64,000 nucleotides of DNA from Oscillospiraceae bacterium. Its GTDB lineage: Bacteria; Bacillota; Clostridia; Oscillospirales; Ruminococcaceae. Location: NCBI GenBank assembly GCA_017415165.1, contig JAFQIY010000041.1:226051-290050 (forward strand). The letters run 5' to 3'. Positions 2,706 to 9,961 of this stretch are shown piece by piece. Below the pieces are notes generated by a model. It had not been told where the DNA came from, searched no databases, and saw only the letters and a program-made list of their open reading frames with translations. A program made the position numbers and the translations under genes. Each line of letters starts with the position of its first letter. Within the stretch, counting starts at the first letter, position 1.

Positions 2706-3227
2706 TTATTTGTTATTACAAAGCTGACAACCAAAACGGCTAAGAAAGGTATTATGCTTGTTACAGCGTGGAAAGCCGCATTTAACAGGTTCATCGTCTT
2801 GCTTATAACTTATCCATTCTGTTAGTTTTTCACTAATAACATCGTCCTCAGTCATTCGTTTTATTAAAATCTTATAATCATTCAATGCTTCAAAAAGCCA
2901 TTCCTCGTTAGGTTCATAGTCAAGCTTATCCCAATCGGTTTTGTTTTTGGCTGCCTCAATAACATTTATGATAAACTGCTTGTCTTTATCAAATCTTTCC
3001 TTATGCCAAGGCATATCCACTATATCAAAATCCACTGAATTTCCAACCATTCGCTGGTCATTTTCCGCAAGCCATACTATAAGCTGTTTTTCTTCTTCAG
3101 CTTCGGCAAGCTTTGACCCTGCCAGAACAAGAACATTTATAAAAACATCGGTTAAACCGTTGGACATTGAAATAAATTTCTCATCCTGATTGTGATTTTT
3201 ATTATCAAAAAAAATGAAATTACTCAT
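2706..3227 (-). CDS. Hypothetical protein with C-terminal zinc-binding-like cysteines
   Basis: Family not recognised. About 173 aa, acidic and mostly helical, no signal peptide or membrane segment. The last 25 residues hold four cysteines as C-x4-C then C-x2-C plus a histidine, a likely small zinc knuckle. I chose the ATG at 3227 because AAGGAGA sits seven bases upstream; an in-frame ATG nine codons earlier has no such site. It stands alone, convergent with adhE and divergent from the phosphatase operon. Without a homologue no function can be given. Confidence 0.7.
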   Translation of the reverse strand: MSNFIFFDNKNHNQDEKFISMSNGLTDVFINVLVLAGSKLAEAEEEKQLIVWLAENDQRMVGNSVDFDIVDMPWHKERFDKDKQFIINVIEAAKNKTDWDKLDYEPNEEWLFEALNDYKILIKRMTEDDVISEKLTEWISYKQDDEPVKCGFPRCNKHNTFLSRFGCQLCNNK

Positions 3228-3344
3228 TATATTTCTCCTTACATATAAATCCAAGAATATCTGCTACACAAGTGGTATTTTCTGCTAAAATTATAACAAC
3301 AAATCCTGTATATTTCAAGTGATTAAGATAAATTTGTGAAATTG

Positions 3345-3374
3345 TTGACCTGTGTCAATATTGTGTGGTATAAT
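3345..3374 (+). promoter_or_regulatory. SigA-type promoter of the phosphatase-TrmO operon
   Basis: TTGACC (3345-3350), 18-nt spacer, TATAAT (3369-3374) with an extended TGG just upstream of the -10. It lies 28 bases before the first gene. No other promoter or terminator is evident up to 8271, so it probably drives all five genes. Confidence 0.85.
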
Positions 3375-3402
3375 TTTTATATATTACTTACGGAGGTACG
3401 CT

Positions 3403-3978
3403 ATGACCACGATTTATTTTGTACGGCACGCAAAGCCTGATAAAACTATACACGATGACCGCACGCGTCCTCTTACTGCGGAGGGGCTTGCTGACTCGGA
3501 AAGGGTTACGGAATTGCTGAAGGACAGGGGCATTGACCTGCTTATGTCCAGTCCGTACAAGCGGAGTATGGACACAATCGGCGGACTTGCTGAGGTGCTT
3601 GGAATGGAGATTGTTACGGACTATGATTTCCGTGAGCGTGAGGCTGGCGGCTGGCACGGTGACAATTTTCTGCAATACATTGAGGCACAATGGGCGGACT
3701 TCAACTATCATATTATGGACGGTGAATGTCTTGCTTCAGTGCAGGAGAGAAATATCCGTGCGCTGAAAAAGGTGCTTGCCAAGCACGAGGGCAAGACGGT
3801 TGTTATCGGCACACATGGCACGGCTTTAAGCACGATTATCAATTTTTACAAGCCTGAATATAATTTTAACAGCTTTATGCGGATACTGAATTTTATGCCG
3901 TATGTGGTGAAGATGGAATTTGAGGGTGAAAGGTTTATTGGTATGAGCGAGGAGCTTATTGTAGAAAAGATTTGGTAA
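3403..3978 (+). CDS. Histidine phosphatase family protein (phosphoglycerate mutase superfamily)
   Basis: A 191-aa cytoplasmic phosphatase of the RHG/RHA branch. The phosphorylated histidine is H9 in VRHAKPD (R8-H9-A10); the family's second arginine is in SSPYKRSMDT, the acid residue in the REREAGG stretch, and the second catalytic histidine in IGTHGTAL. Substrate is not predictable; relatives act on phosphosugars, phosphoserine or nucleotides. The start at 3403 is fixed by CGGAGG seven bases upstream. First gene of the operon that continues with an unknown protein, a NUDIX hydrolase, the GTPase-nuclease fusion and TrmO. Confidence 0.9.
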   Translation: MTTIYFVRHAKPDKTIHDDRTRPLTAEGLADSERVTELLKDRGIDLLMSSPYKRSMDTIGGLAEVLGMEIVTDYDFREREAGGWHGDNFLQYIEAQWADFNYHIMDGECLASVQERNIRALKKVLAKHEGKTVVIGTHGTALSTIINFYKPEYNFNSFMRILNFMPYVVKMEFEGERFIGMSEELIVEKIW

Positions 3979-3990
3979 GTGAGGGATACA

Positions 3991-4545
3991 ATGGACAGAA
4001 ACACATTAATTAACACTTTAAACAAAATAGCAATATCAAAAAGCTGTGCAGGCTTTTATTTCAGCTTTGATAATTACTCTTACAATCTTATTCCGCTGAA
4101 AGTCAGCAACAAACTTCTGCTTGCTGCACACGATTATGATTTTCTCATCAACGGATATAAAATTGCTCGTCTTAAACACATTGAAAAGGTTGATGACAAA
4201 AGTGGGAAATACAACGAAATTCTTGAACTTGAAGGAATTAACAAAGGTATCGATGTACCTGAAATAAGCATTGAAAATATGCGGTCGGTATGCAAACATT
4301 TTCTTGATAAACAACAATATATTTCACTTGAATTTGAGAGCAAAAACTACGAATGGAATTTTGCAATCGGTAAGATTGTAAAGCTTACTGACAAGCACAT
4401 TTATTTTACACATTTTGACAGTATGGGCAATTGGAAAAAGAAATTGCTGAAAATAAAATATTCTGATATTTTCATTATTCATTTCTGTGACAGGTACACA
4501 GAAACTTTTTCAAAGCACGTTACACCACTTGAAGCAAAGGAGTAA
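3991..4545 (+). CDS. Hypothetical beta-rich protein
   Basis: 184 aa, no signal or membrane segment, not recognised as a named family. The pattern of alternating hydrophobic residues suggests two similar small beta-barrel units: one around INGYKIARLKHIEKVD, the other around IGKIVKLTDKHIYFTHFD, joined by a helix. The ATG at 3991 is preferred because GAGGG lies five bases upstream; a GTG at 3979 directly after the previous stop is the alternative. Spacing is 12 bases to the phosphatase and 4 to the NUDIX gene, so it is co-translated with housekeeping hydrolases. Confidence 0.8.
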   Translation: MDRNTLINTLNKIAISKSCAGFYFSFDNYSYNLIPLKVSNKLLLAAHDYDFLINGYKIARLKHIEKVDDKSGKYNEILELEGINKGIDVPEISIENMRSVCKHFLDKQQYISLEFESKNYEWNFAIGKIVKLTDKHIYFTHFDSMGNWKKKLLKIKYSDIFIIHFCDRYTETFSKHVTPLEAKE

Positions 4546-4549
4546 TTCT

Positions 4550-5041
4550 ATGCCTGAAATATGGGATTTATATGATAGCAATAAGCAGAAAACAGGTGAA
4601 GTTATTGAACGTGAACGGGTACACGAAATTCCAGAGGGGCTTTATCATCTTGCGGTTGATATATGGGTCAAGACATCTGACGGGCGGTATCTTATCACAC
4701 AGAGAAGTGAAAAGAAGCCGAGTTACCCTCTTTACTGGGAATGCACAGGCGGTGCGGTTGTAAGCGGTGAGGAAAGTATTGATGGTGCTGTTCGTGAACT
4801 TGCTGAGGAAACAGGACTTCGTGCTGAAAAGGCTGATTTGAAGCTTGTGAACACAGTTGTTTACTCCAATTACATTATGGACGTTTATCTTTACGAGCGT
4901 GATGTGGATATGTCGGAAGTGGTTTTGCAGGAGGACGAGGTTTGCGGTGCAAAGCTTGCAACGGAGGCTGAAATTCTTGCTATGATTGAAAATGATGAGT
5001 TTGTGGAGCGTGTATGGAAACGCTTTGCAGAGGTAAAATAA
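4550..5041 (+). CDS. NUDIX hydrolase
   Basis: 163-aa hydrolase of nucleoside diphosphates linked to another moiety. The complete Nudix box Gx5Ex7REUxEExGU is visible: G68, E74, R82-E83-L84, E86-E87, G89-L90; the glutamates coordinate the divalent metal. The N-terminus (WDLYDSNKQKTG, then ERERVHEIPEGLYH) resembles the YfcD / isopentenyl-diphosphate-isomerase-like Nudix branch. Start chosen at 4550 with AAAGGAG overlapping the previous stop region; starting earlier would overlap the upstream gene by more than 50 bases. Substrate unknown. Confidence 0.92.
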   Translation: MPEIWDLYDSNKQKTGEVIERERVHEIPEGLYHLAVDIWVKTSDGRYLITQRSEKKPSYPLYWECTGGAVVSGEESIDGAVRELAEETGLRAEKADLKLVNTVVYSNYIMDVYLYERDVDMSEVVLQEDEVCGAKLATEAEILAMIENDEFVERVWKRFAEVK

Positions 5042-5060: not shown

Positions 5061-7598
5061 ATGAAACGATTGGTAATCGGTATGATAGCCCACGTTGACT
5101 CGGGCAAGACGACTCTTTCGGAGGCTATGCTTTACTCGGCGGGGGAAATCCGCAAGCTTGGCAGGGTTGACCACGGTGACGCGTTTCTTGACACTCATTC
5201 GATTGAGCGAAGCCGTGGTATTACTGTTTTTTCAAAGCAGGCTGTTATGCGGTACGGTGACTGCGACATTACCTTGCTTGACACGCCGGGACACGCTGAT
5301 TTTTCTGCGGAAACTGAACGTGCTTTGCAGGCACTTGATTATGCGGTGCTTGTTATCAGCGGCACGGACGGCGTACAGAGTCACACGGAAACGCTGTGGC
5401 GATTGCTGACGAGATACAGGATACCTGCGTTTATTTTTGTGAACAAGATGGATATTTCCTCATATGAGCCGTCTGTGCTTATGGGTGGATTGTGCAATCG
5501 GTTGGACAGCGGTTGTATTGACTTTTCGGCAAGCCGTGACCGTGACGCATTTTACGAAGAAGCGGCGATGTGTGATGAAAGGCTTATGGAGGAGTTTCTT
5601 GAAAGCGGTGAGATTTCTCCCGAAAGCTTACGCAGGGCGATTGATGAACGAAAGATATTCCCCTGCTTTTTCGGTTCGGCACTGAAAATGAGCGGCATTG
5701 AGGAATTTCTCAAAGGCTTGGATTTTTACGCTGTACAGAAAGAATATCCTGCTGAATTTGGTGCAAGGGTGTTCAAGATTACCGAGGAACAGAATGTGCG
5801 TCTTACTCATATAAAGATTACGGGCGGAAGTCTGAAGGTACGCTCGGTTATCGGCGAGGAAAAGATAAATCAGATACGAATTTACTCGGGCACGAAATTT
5901 CAAGCTGTTGACGAGGTATTTGCAGGTGCGGTATGTGCGATTACGGGACTTGCTCACAGCTATTCGGGACAGGGTCTGGGTGCGGAAAGCAATGCTGACA
6001 CTCCCCTGCTTGAGCCTGTGCTGACCTACAAGTTAATTCTTCCGCCGAAAACGGATTTGCACACGGCGCTCACGCAGATGCGCAAGCTTGAAGAAGAAGA
6101 CCCGCAGCTTCACGTTGTATGGAATGAGCAGGCTCAGAAAATTCACGTTCAGCTTATGGGGGAAATTCAGCTGGAAATTCTGAAAACGGTTATTGCTGAG
6201 CGTTTCGGATATGAAGCGGAATTCGGCACGGGAAGCATTGTTTACAAGGAAACTATTTCCGACACGGTTGAAGGTGTGGGGCACTATGAGCCTTTGCGCC
6301 ATTATGCGGAGGTGCACCTTTTACTTGAACCTGCTGAAAGGGGCAGCGGCTTGCATTTTGCAAGTGATTGTCACGTTGATGACCTTGACCGCAACTGGCA
6401 GAGGTTAATTCTTACGCATCTTGAAGAAAAAACACACGTTGGCGTGCTGACGGGCTCGCCTATTACGGATATGAAAATCACGCTTATTGCAGGACGTGCA
6501 CACCTTAAACACACGGAGGGCGGCGACTTCCGTCAGGCGACTTACCGTGCTGTACGTCAGGGGTTACGCTCGGCAAAAAGCGTGCTTTTAGAGCCTTGGT
6601 ACAACTTCACGCTGGAAGTTCCGTCAGAGTCGGTTGGACGTGCTTTGTCCGATATGCAGAGGTTATCTGCGGAATTTGAGCCGCCCGAAACGCTGGGCGA
6701 AACGGCTGTAATAACCGGAAGTGCACCCGTTTCGGAGATGCAGAATTACCGAAGCGAGGTTATAAGCTACACCCACGGCAAGGGACGCATAAGCCTTATT
6801 CTGAAAGGGTATTTCCCTTGTCACAATGCTGAAAAGGTTGTTGAAGAAATCGGATACGACTGCGATGGTGACCTTGAAAACACGGCGGACAGCGTGTTCT
6901 GCTCGCACGGTGCGGGATTTGTTGTAAAGTGGGACGAAGTACCGTCACACGCTCACATAAGCGGACGGAAGGAGCGTACCGAAAGTGCTGACGAGGAAAT
7001 TACTGTTCAGCAGGTAAGCAGTTACCGTGCGAGAATTGCCGAGGACAAGGAGCTTATGGAAATTTTCGAGCGTACCTACGGCAAGATAAAACGTGATGAG
7101 CGGCACGCTATGCACACGGAAAAGCATATTCCCCAAGCAAAGCCGCACAAGGCTAAGCCTTTGCCGACGGGTCCCGAATATCTGCTTGTTGACGGGTACA
7201 ATATTATTTTTGCGTGGGAGGACTTGAACAAGCTGGCAAAGGAAAACCTTGACCTTGCGAGAACCACGCTGATAAACCGTTTGTGCAACTATCAGGGCTT
7301 CAAACAGAATAATGTTATCGTTGTTTTTGATGCGTACAGGGTTTCGGGGCATCATCGTGAGGTTGAACAGCATCACAACGTAAGCGTTGTTTACACGAAG
7401 GAGTCGGAGACGGCTGACTCTTACATTGAAAAGGTTACGCACGAACTCAGCAAGTCCCATCGTGTTCGTGTTGCCACTTCTGACGGCACGGAGCAGATTA
7501 TCATTCTCGGCAATGGTGCGTTCCGTGTTTCGGCGGCAGAATTTGAGGACGAAGTCAAGCGTGTTGAGGCGGCTATAAGGGAGATTATAAGCCAATGA
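5061..7598 (+). CDS. TetM-like translation GTPase fused to a YacP/Rae1-like NYN ribonuclease domain
   Basis: 845 aa. Residues 1 to about 650 match the EF-G-like ribosomal-protection family (TetM/TetO): P-loop AHVDSGKTT (10-18), switch I RGIT (52-55), DTPGH (74-78), NKMD (128-131), followed by the beta-barrel and EF-G III-V-like domains. After a basic, proline-containing linker (about 660-705) comes a YacP-type NYN/PIN-like domain (706-845): VDGYN with D711 and N714, VVFDAYR with D757, ETADSYIE with D786, TSDGTEQ with D808, the acidic set expected of the nuclease fold. Bacillus subtilis YacP (Rae1) cuts mRNA in the ribosomal A site; TetM proteins bind that site. The tetracycline-displacing SPVS loop of TetM is replaced by AHLKHTEGGDF, so resistance is doubtful. 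TrmO follows with an ATGA overlap. Confidence 0.93.
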   Translation: MKRLVIGMIAHVDSGKTTLSEAMLYSAGEIRKLGRVDHGDAFLDTHSIERSRGITVFSKQAVMRYGDCDITLLDTPGHADFSAETERALQALDYAVLVISGTDGVQSHTETLWRLLTRYRIPAFIFVNKMDISSYEPSVLMGGLCNRLDSGCIDFSASRDRDAFYEEAAMCDERLMEEFLESGEISPESLRRAIDERKIFPCFFGSALKMSGIEEFLKGLDFYAVQKEYPAEFGARVFKITEEQNVRLTHIKITGGSLKVRSVIGEEKINQIRIYSGTKFQAVDEVFAGAVCAITGLAHSYSGQGLGAESNADTPLLEPVLTYKLILPPKTDLHTALTQMRKLEEEDPQLHVVWNEQAQKIHVQLMGEIQLEILKTVIAERFGYEAEFGTGSIVYKETISDTVEGVGHYEPLRHYAEVHLLLEPAERGSGLHFASDCHVDDLDRNWQRLILTHLEEKTHVGVLTGSPITDMKITLIAGRAHLKHTEGGDFRQATYRAVRQGLRSAKSVLLEPWYNFTLEVPSESVGRALSDMQRLSAEFEPPETLGETAVITGSAPVSEMQNYRSEVISYTHGKGRISLILKGYFPCHNAEKVVEEIGYDCDGDLENTADSVFCSHGAGFVVKWDEVPSHAHISGRKERTESADEEITVQQVSSYRARIAEDKELMEIFERTYGKIKRDERHAMHTEKHIPQAKPHKAKPLPTGPEYLLVDGYNIIFAWEDLNKLAKENLDLARTTLINRLCNYQGFKQNNVIVVFDAYRVSGHHREVEQHHNVSVVYTKESETADSYIEKVTHELSKSHRVRVATSDGTEQIIILGNGAFRVSAAEFEDEVKRVEAAIREIISQ

Positions 7599-8272
7599 GA
7601 GAGATGAAAACTATTGCACACATAAGAAGTCCGTTTACGGAGAAATTCGGTATCCCACGTCAGAGCGGATTGACGTCGCTTTGCTCGGAGATTGTTTTTG
7701 AGCCTGAGTATCGGGTTGTTGAGGCTTTCCGTGGGCTGGAGGGTTACTCTCACTTATGGATTTTATGGGAATTTTCTGAGGCTGTGCAGGATGGCTGGTC
7801 TCCGACAGTACGTCCTCCCCGTCTTGGGGGCAACACTCGTATGGGTGTTTTTGCCACACGCTCACCTTATCGTCCCAATCCCATTGGTATGTCCTCGGTC
7901 AAGCTGGAGAGGATTGATTTGCACACGGCGGAAGGTCCCGTGCTGTATGTAAGCGGTGCGGATATTCTTGATGGCACGCCGATTTACGACATCAAGCCGT
8001 ATCTTGCTTACACAGACTCTCACCCTGAGGCGACGGGCGGTTTTGCATTACAGCAGAAAGAGGGCGTGCTGAAGGTGGACTTCCCTGCAGAGTTGCTGGG
8101 ACAAGTTCCTGCTAAGCTTCGGCAGGGACTGATTGAGATTTTGGCACAAGACCCTCGTCCGCAGTATCAGAACTCCCCTGAGCGTATTTATATGATGGCT
8201 TTCGGGGGATTTGATGTGCAGTTTCGGGTTGAGGGAGATTTGCTGACGGTTTGCGGAATTATAAAAAAATAA
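7595..8272 (+). CDS. trmO: tRNA (N6-threonylcarbamoyladenosine(37)-N6)-methyltransferase TrmO
   Basis: 225-aa SAM-dependent enzyme (UPF0066/TsaA family) that adds a methyl group to t6A37 in threonine tRNAs and improves decoding of ACY codons. Family signatures visible are RPNPIGMSSVKLE, GADILDGTPIYDIKPY and YTDSHPEA, in the expected order; length is typical of the form with a C-terminal extension. Its ATG overlaps the stop of the GTPase-nuclease gene (ATGA at 7595), with AAGGGAG 11 bases upstream, so translation is coupled to it. A second in-frame ATG at 7604 is possible. Ends in a shared terminator. Confidence 0.95.
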   Translation: MREMKTIAHIRSPFTEKFGIPRQSGLTSLCSEIVFEPEYRVVEAFRGLEGYSHLWILWEFSEAVQDGWSPTVRPPRLGGNTRMGVFATRSPYRPNPIGMSSVKLERIDLHTAEGPVLYVSGADILDGTPIYDIKPYLAYTDSHPEATGGFALQQKEGVLKVDFPAELLGQVPAKLRQGLIEILAQDPRPQYQNSPERIYMMAFGGFDVQFRVEGDLLTVCGIIKK

Positions 8273-9289: not shown

Positions 9290-9961
9290 TTATTTTACCT
9301 CCGTATCGTAAATTATGAAAAAGAGATCAATTTCACCATTATTCTCATCATCAAATGATATGATAATACGTTCATTTTCAGAAAATGCATATTGATAAAT
9401 CGTTCCGTCTTCAGAATTAATTGTATTCGGTTCTCCCAAAATATCAACAATTTCTTCTTGGGAACTTTGATTTGTAATCCCCATTATATTGAACTGCGGT
9501 AACCCTCGGATATTATCCATAAAAAATGCCACTAACGTACTGTTTTCAATTTCATTTTCAGTCAAATTTCCATTAAAACTGATTTGTGCAATGTATTTAT
9601 CGCCAATATATAAATTAACAGTAGTATAATCATAATCAGAAACATATCCTAAATATTCTGTCATAAATGATGTACCTAATTCCGATAAGGTGCATGGAAG
9701 AGTAAAAGTATTATTTTCAATTGATATATTTGATAATAATTCTTCCATTGTCCAATCTGTAATTTCAAATTTAATAGGGTTGTAAGAGTTTTCAGTTTCT
9801 GTCGTCTCAAACGTTTGAGTTTCAGCCTTAACATTCGCTGTCGTTTCACTAACCACCGCCTCACTCAACGGTGCGGTTTGTTCTGTATTGCCATTCTGAC
9901 AAGCCGACAGCGACAGGGTTACTGCGATTGCGGCAAAAATGCTTAAAATTCTGTTTTTCAT
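9290..9961 (-). CDS. Putative lipoprotein
   Basis: 223 aa. Signal peptide with a lipobox LSAC and lipidated C21, then a Thr/Glu-rich spacer (about 22-60) and a globular exported domain. The last third, IVDILGEPN to ISFDDENNGEIDLFF, resembles the short alpha-beta modules of small surface lipoproteins (SmpA/OmlA- or BLIP-like pattern), but I do not recognise a named family. SD AAGGAGG lies six bases before the ATG. It is followed at once by a decayed gene of similar type, so this was a two-gene lipoprotein unit. Confidence 0.82.
   Translation of the reverse strand: MKNRILSIFAAIAVTLSLSACQNGNTEQTAPLSEAVVSETTANVKAETQTFETTETENSYNPIKFEITDWTMEELLSNISIENNTFTLPCTLSELGTSFMTEYLGYVSDYDYTTVNLYIGDKYIAQISFNGNLTENEIENSTLVAFFMDNIRGLPQFNIMGITNQSSQEEIVDILGEPNTINSEDGTIYQYAFSENERIIISFDDENNGEIDLFFIIYDTEVK

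Follow-up and report, generated by a model that had tools for sequence, protein, structure and literature searches.

A clostridial translation GTPase fused to a Rae1-type nuclease domain, a candidate for guided mRNA cleavage in the ribosomal A site

The window analyzed here comprises 64,000 nucleotides from an Oscillospiraceae gut bacterium (GCA_017415165.1, contig JAFQIY010000041.1, positions 226,051 to 290,050) and carries on its forward strand, at positions 5061-7598, a gene in which a translation GTPase is fused to an NYN nuclease domain of the Rae1/YacP type. Judging from its sequence, we interpret the encoded protein with a probability of roughly 0.55 as the Rae1 of this genome, mounted on a translation GTPase that would guide the cleavage of mRNA in the ribosomal A site; the fusion looks like a replacement of the usual separate nuclease Rae1. 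Guided A-site cleavage is our leading reading because a Rae1-type activity is joined to a relative of GTPases that act on the A site, because no free Rae1 was found and because the genome has tmRNA. A preliminary description of this stretch had recognized the fusion and proposed a factor that enters stalled ribosomes by GTP-driven binding and cuts the mRNA there; the observation was confirmed, and the interpretation is partly supported.

The fusion gene encodes 845 residues in one intact open frame with an ATG start and zero internal stops. Residues 1-589 form an EF-G-like GTPase in which all G motifs are present, with Pfam matches above cut-off to GTP_EFTU (residues 4-223, 161 bits; positions 5070-5729), EFG_III (domain III, residues 319-389; 6015-6227), EFG_IV (domain IV, residues 392-506; 6234-6578) and EFG_C (domain V, residues 508-589; 6582-6827). 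Alignments delimit a C-terminal extension of the subfamily (residues 590-632, SVFCSHGAGF..WDE; 6828-6956) and a linker (residues 633-706; 6957-7178), behind which lies the NYN_YacP/Rae1 nuclease domain (residues 707-842; 7179-7586) with the acids D711, D757, D786 and D808 and without the C-terminal tail of Rae1. The Pfam match to NYN_YacP (residues 708-842) reached 171 bits against a cut-off of 24.6. In sequence searches of the PDB the first 590 residues returned EF-G, TetO (4v6v) and TetM (3j9y), and residues 707-840 returned YacP of B. subtilis (5mq8/5mq9) with an E value of 1.3e-29.

Conservation within the fused family was assessed in an alignment of the window protein with 37 relatives (A1, 38 rows). 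The G motifs of the window protein are AHVDSGKT (residues 10-17), T55, DTPGH (74-78) and NKMD (128-131), and D13, G15-T18, T55, D74-H78 including the DTPGH histidine, N128, K129 and D131 are kept in 38/38 rows, which bears out the earlier claim of an intact EF-G/TetM-type GTPase with four G motifs. Domain IV, which contacts the A site in EF-G and TetM, is the best-conserved region (mean top-residue frequency 0.81, compared with 0.64-0.69 for the other folded regions), and its tip loops at residues 405-419 (GVGHYEPLRHYAEVH) and 478-491 (GRAHLKHTEGGDFR) reach 0.96 and 0.89, suggesting that whatever domain IV touches matters for function. By alignment, the domain IV loops of the fused family are unlike those of both TetM and EF-G: at the place of the SPVS loop of Tet(M/O/W/S) the window protein has AHLKHTEGGDFR, and loop 1 differs from Tet as well. 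In Tet(M/O/W/S) the SPVS loop reads SPVSTPADFR and takes part in dislodging tetracycline. The loop replacement given in the preliminary description stands, but it is a weak argument against an antibiotic role, as the Tet-like proteins L196, L200, L203 and L097 also lack SPVS. The extension is common to the aligned fused and unfused members of the subfamily and missing in the aligned Tet, Tet-like and EF-G rows. In the otherwise variable linker, E664 (38/38 rows of A1), I668 and T672 (95% each) are conserved, and among relatives 67-97 residues lie between the positions that correspond to 632 and 707. A divergent P-loop, DSGKMT, was seen in L107 (Ruminococcus flavefaciens FD-1), the A1 rows having DAGKTT (25) or DSGKTT (13); it may be a true substitution or a draft-sequence error.

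Phylogenetic analysis of the GTPase half against Tet and EF-G groups, a check that the preliminary description had proposed, was performed with a quick method on 98 rows, of which 59 are fused and 20 unfused members of the subfamily, 11 are Tet-like, 4 are Tet proteins and 4 serve as outgroup. All 59 fused GTPases fall into a single clade with a support of 96 in the Shimodaira-Hasegawa-like approximate likelihood ratio test (SH-aLRT), the 20 unfused rows are its sister group (86), and together they are set apart from the Tet and Tet-like rows (SH-aLRT 100; 95 for the Tet and Tet-like side), with a branch length of 1.43 changes per column between the subfamily and the Tet(M/O/W/S) and Tet-like rows. 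On this tree the subfamily of the GTPase half stands on its own outside the Tet clade, as sister to those Tet and Tet-like proteins that were sampled, so that the label 'of TetM type' had to be given up; the Tet side is sampled by the four named Tet and 11 Tet-like rows, Tet(Q) and OtrA being among those left out. The tree covers loci from L032 onwards (earlier ones have short flanks) and excludes repeats (L081, L085, L087, L089-L091, L243, L244), broken or contig-cut loci (L070, L204, L205), other proteins (L209, L213, L245, L247, L248) and L060 although it is intact; the unfused members of G290, G054, G277 and G146 are absent too. Among the 80 loci from the relatives search, 7 were used in the trees.

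A single fusion event is the simplest reading of this topology. Two genomes of the window's own order, G178 and G288, have an unfused GTPase and no NYN over the cut-off, and their placement as sister to the fused clade was not rejected in the approximately unbiased (AU) test (p 0.557), the constrained tree scoring slightly above the unconstrained quick tree. A position beside the fused clade would mean either loss of the NYN domain or a pre-fusion state, and might break up the unfused rows as a clade. In the tree of the NYN domains (which excludes the repeats of the GTPase tree and L001, L020, L022, L025, L026, L060, L204 and L206, and has three proteins entered twice), 60 of the 63 fused domains group with the standalone NYN of G209 (support 89/75), and the remaining L037, L194 and L195 are long or weakly placed; all 63 fused domains and the G209 NYN lie on one side of a branch (71/94). 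A clade of the 63 fused domains alone was not rejected (AU p 0.214). We tentatively read the G209 NYN as a true standalone form and not as a fission product because it has an LEKIR tail, despite its placement inside the fused group.

The distribution of the fusion was surveyed in 293 genomes of the class, both for frames with a YacP NYN and with a 32-row profile built from the GTPase half (A2; E up to 1e-120), and in 299 genomes of the phylum. YacP NYN frames in the class fell into two size groups, ~160-220 and 840-950 residues, apart from contig-cut or split cases, one frame of 342 residues and one listed at 1190 residues (865 in the fetched locus). The A2 matches formed tiers: fused proteins, most with at least 865 bits, unfused GTPases (624-729 residues) with ~670-830 bits and one partial match of 510, and Tet-like proteins with ~400-500 bits. 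The fusion was found in 103 genomes of the class, in agreement with the earlier suspicion that it is widespread in clostridia, a standalone NYN in 88 and an unfused GTPase in 19, and 23 of the 299 phylum genomes matched one of the GTPase tiers. Named carriers include Ruminococcus flavefaciens FD-1, Intestinimonas butyriciproducens, Anaerovorax odorimutans, Fusibacter sp. 3D3 and Monoglobus pectinilyticus, in whose record the product is called 'translation factor GTPase family protein'. The gene is whole in most relatives; among the 103 fused genomes it is split into two frames in G044 and G235, has an in-frame stop in G190 and is fragmented or truncated at contig ends in G071, G172, G156 and G062, and in G121 the match to the GTPase profile begins only after position 158. 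The broken genes at L070 (G190, in-frame stop) and L205 (G044, two frames) may be pseudogenes or reflect sequence errors.

Fused and standalone forms exclude each other almost perfectly. With G185 (contig-cut) and G261 (a 27-residue frame) set aside as ambiguous, the two occurred together in only one of 291 genomes (G284, family f51), where ~31 would be expected (103 x 88 / 291); Fisher's test gave an odds ratio of 0.011 and p 1.2e-19, uncorrected for relatedness, related genomes not being independent. In families f22, f23, f27, f28 and f47 fused and standalone-only genomes stand side by side, with zero sampled genomes having both. No second YacP NYN was found in the window's genome (93% complete, 75 contigs), in which a tmRNA gene is present. 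A candidate second YacP in the f27 genomes G120, G174 and G208 scored 21-22 bits, below the cut-off, and was rejected as another NYN-like protein.

The two forms were also compared for a position beside rlmB. From the 88 standalone genomes, 29 distinct loci were examined; rlmB lies directly upstream in 24, the four without it are from three f23 genomes and G209, and the one that is too short is also f23. In fused genomes in which rlmB was looked up, an NYN lies beside it in 1 of 23 (G284), three loci being shortened by contig ends, and in the window's genome the best rlmB match lies on contig C30, away from the window on C39, and has no adjoining NYN. In the account of the locus given in PMC6613710, rae1 of B. 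subtilis likewise adjoins the rlmB homologue yacO. Three further loci patterns were recorded: within f23, L016, L017 and L021 have a standalone Rae1 without upstream rlmB and genome G018 has the fusion; G106 has two unfused GTPase copies (L184, L185) together with a standalone Rae1 adjoining rlmB (L012); and in L206 (2133-3155, G286) an rlmB-linked YacP NYN lies in a 341-residue frame whose ~90 residues after the NYN have no Pfam match.

After removal of repeats, 28 standalone and 63 fused NYN domains were compared. Of 22 columns invariant in the standalone domains, the fused set retains 19 in at least 59/63 cases, among them all four acids, which are present in 38/38 rows of A1 and 63/63 fused domains. 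By alignment they correspond to B. subtilis positions 7, 53, 81 and 104, which we take to be the catalytic positions of Rae1/YacP; a Rae1-type NYN with a full acidic site, as described before, is thus found here. The columns not kept are R118 (30/63), the tail leucine (2/63) and the tail arginine (2/63). The pattern [LIM][ED]x[ILWMF]R near the C-terminus occurs in 30/31 standalone and 3/63 fused rows (three proteins counted twice); some fused proteins, the window's included, stop before the tail, and most others keep its length and have lost its basic end. Moreover, the K62 column changes from 85% K in 27 standalone rows to 70% E in 61 fused rows (E767 in the window protein), and the E123 column falls from 100% to 64% in the same rows, from which L071, L194 and L195 are excluded. 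The invariant tail arginine aligns to B. subtilis R165, adjoining R166, and R166P is among the rae1 alleles selected as efp suppressors, a class taken by the authors as loss of function (PMC6613710, Table 1). We read the residue pattern as relaxed docking, in which a nuclease tied to a ribosome-binding GTPase would need no anchor of its own.

Guided A-site cleavage could proceed in the following way. In its GTP form the EF-G-like half would bind the factor site of the ribosome, and domain IV, as its sequence conservation suggests, would enter a vacant or stalled A site. GTP hydrolysis would then withdraw domain IV, and the NYN domain on its ~75-residue tether would cut the mRNA in the emptied A site, leaving the truncated message to be handled by tmRNA; the protein would then have a part in ribosome rescue. 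The steps would be sequential because domain IV and the NYN domain could hardly share the decoding site. A more specific version, which we put forward tentatively, is a one-chain, GTP-driven no-go decay factor in which domain IV would test for an unoccupied A site and GTP hydrolysis would license the cut of the tethered Rae1, making the Rae1 docking surface dispensable. In eukaryotic no-go decay, Hbs1/Dom34 and the nuclease Cue2 act on stalled ribosomes; there too a translation GTPase and a nuclease meet, but as separate proteins, and the parallel is an analogy only.

Several observations weigh against guided A-site cleavage. Domain IV and the NYN domain would be competitors for one site. Of the 88 standalone-NYN genomes, 74 have the GTPase in neither form, 6/19 unfused-GTPase genomes lack an NYN, and the excess of NYN among the unfused-GTPase genomes is not significant (p 0.052); since each half occurs without the other, a partnership of GTPase and NYN is not obligatory. 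The fused NYN domains were not recovered alone as one clade, the standalone G209 domain lying inside. The set used for the invariant columns covers 28 of the 88 standalone genomes, mostly the strongest profile matches, and the loss of tail and R118 may reflect a changed substrate instead of a handover of docking; the window's own domain retains R118 (R822) and E123 (E827).

The separate occurrence of the halves, together with the variable length and mostly unconserved sequence of the linker, would also be expected if both halves keep independent jobs and the tether gives only co-expression or a higher local concentration. We consider such a passive fusion unlikely, as the loss or replacement of the invariant tail in nearly all sampled fused domains would be unexpected for a domain that docks alone, the linker has three conserved positions and the fusion persists across many families. 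If, on the other hand, the substrate changed, the protein might be an RNA processing or ribosome quality-control factor whose GTPase positions the NYN domain for cleavage of rRNA or tRNA on ribosomes or subunits. The altered surface, with K62 mostly E and the tail lost, would fit this proposal, which is nevertheless quite unlikely given that the acidic positions are unchanged and that Rae1, the closest studied relative, is described in passages of PMC12320835 and PMC6613710 as cutting mRNA in the A site.

Least probable, and in our view very improbable, is a protein that protects the ribosome from tetracycline or another drug with the aid of an RNase. It was proposed in PMC4342817, and both the sister position to the Tet and Tet-like rows and the best NCBIfam profile (tet_protect, 383.4 bits) point in this direction. 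The curated cut-off of that profile is 775 bits, however, and the window protein lacks the SPVS loop, differs in loop 1 and is separated from the Tet side by the long branch given above. Presence in 103/293 genomes of the class without a recurrent neighbourhood is also unlike a typical acquired resistance gene.

The fusion architecture has been in print since 2015, and the window protein is another member. Atkinson 2015 (PMC4342817) devoted two sentences to 'Tet' proteins that carry a YacP-like NYN domain, found in ten species of Clostridiales, and offered RNase-aided antibiotic resistance as a guess; the same paper states that the domain IV loops of Tet dislodge tetracycline. The window protein shares with them the Tet-like translational GTPase, the YacP-like NYN domain and the occurrence in Clostridiales, and may belong to the same clade. 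The exclusion of Rae1, the separate subfamily and the tail loss are not reported in that paper's section on EF2. A search of PMC, whose coverage did not extend to Leroy 2017 and Condon 2018 on Rae1, found the fusion mentioned in PMC4342817 only and no experiment on it; nor did it return the Rae1 exclusion, a subfamily with unfused sisters or the loss of the Rae1 tail. The preliminary description knew of no described function for the fusion; the fusion itself had been published, with a suggested role in resistance.

Compared with its relatives, the window protein shares the NYN family by sequence and the four acids with B. subtilis Rae1/YacP, and 19/22 invariant columns are common family-wide, but the B. 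subtilis protein, described in parts of PMC12320835 and PMC6613710 as an A-site mRNA endonuclease, stands alone with ~170 residues and has the C-terminal basic tail. With Tet(M) and Tet(O) it has the EF-G-like domains in common (~26-28% identity over 584-586 residues among the listed plasmid copies), from which it differs in its domain IV loops without SPVS, in the added extension and NYN domain and in its score below the tet_protect cut-off. The unfused sister L072 of Paenibacillus cellulosilyticus (NZ_CP054613.1; 655 residues, 46.8% identity) has the same HxxHTxGGDFR loop type and the extension, after which it ends without an NYN. The L072 gene lies at 3001-4968 of the NZ_CP054613.1 locus, where the plasmid table lists no gene.

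In the window, the fusion gene belongs to a same-strand run of a histidine phosphatase gene, an unassigned 188-residue frame, a NUDIX-family gene, the fusion gene and TrmO. Its ATG follows the stop of the NUDIX gene by 19 bases, and it overlaps by 4 bases with the gene for TrmO (tRNA methyltransferase O; 7595-8272, forward strand), a neighbour in close relatives only. A promoter-like site (11/12) lies at 3345-3374, in a scan that gave 16 such sites in total against 10.1 expected by chance. Close to this run, no Pfam match was obtained for the window frames 2706-3254 (reverse strand), 3979-4545 (forward) and 9290-9961 (reverse). A conserved operon and a toxin-antitoxin pair were both rejected as general clues to function after the flank survey (118 flank sets with neighbours, the window included and some species represented twice; 604 neighbouring open reading frames; 25 largest clusters considered): the largest neighbour cluster spans 11/118 sets and TrmO occurs in 5/118, directly adjoining in the window, L100 and L121 and as the second neighbour in L098 and L099. 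Apart from the window, these sets belong to close relatives (L098-L100 being the nearest three that the search for relatives gave) or to one further genome.

Carriage by phages was considered and rejected. Two records labelled 'Bacteriophage sp.' and UNVERIFIED, MT835563.1 (L255) and MT835514.1 (L256), contain the fusion over 98-99% of the query, and their flanks look chromosomal, with feoB-, fur-, gltX- and glpK-like genes around L256 and a prolyl-tRNA-ligase-like frame in L255, as read from the sequence starts; they are likely mislabelled bacterial DNA. Separately, the copy in L073 (Monoglobus pectinilyticus NZ_OY725736.1, the 518-kb 'plasmid 12') is nearly identical to L044 on a 2.76-Mb contig of G135, and the plasmid label of NZ_OY725736.1 may be doubtful.

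To our knowledge, it is unclear how A-site nucleases such as Rae1 reach the right ribosomes, and a fusion with a kept active site and a lost tail offers a direct test of how nucleases of this type find them. By this analysis, a large group of proteins close in sequence to tetracycline-resistance factors would not be resistance genes, which matters for the annotation of resistomes. If the cut is indeed gated by the GTPase, about a third of the sampled class would have swapped free Rae1 for a gated form, and in other genomes the unfused sister GTPase would serve to load the free nuclease.

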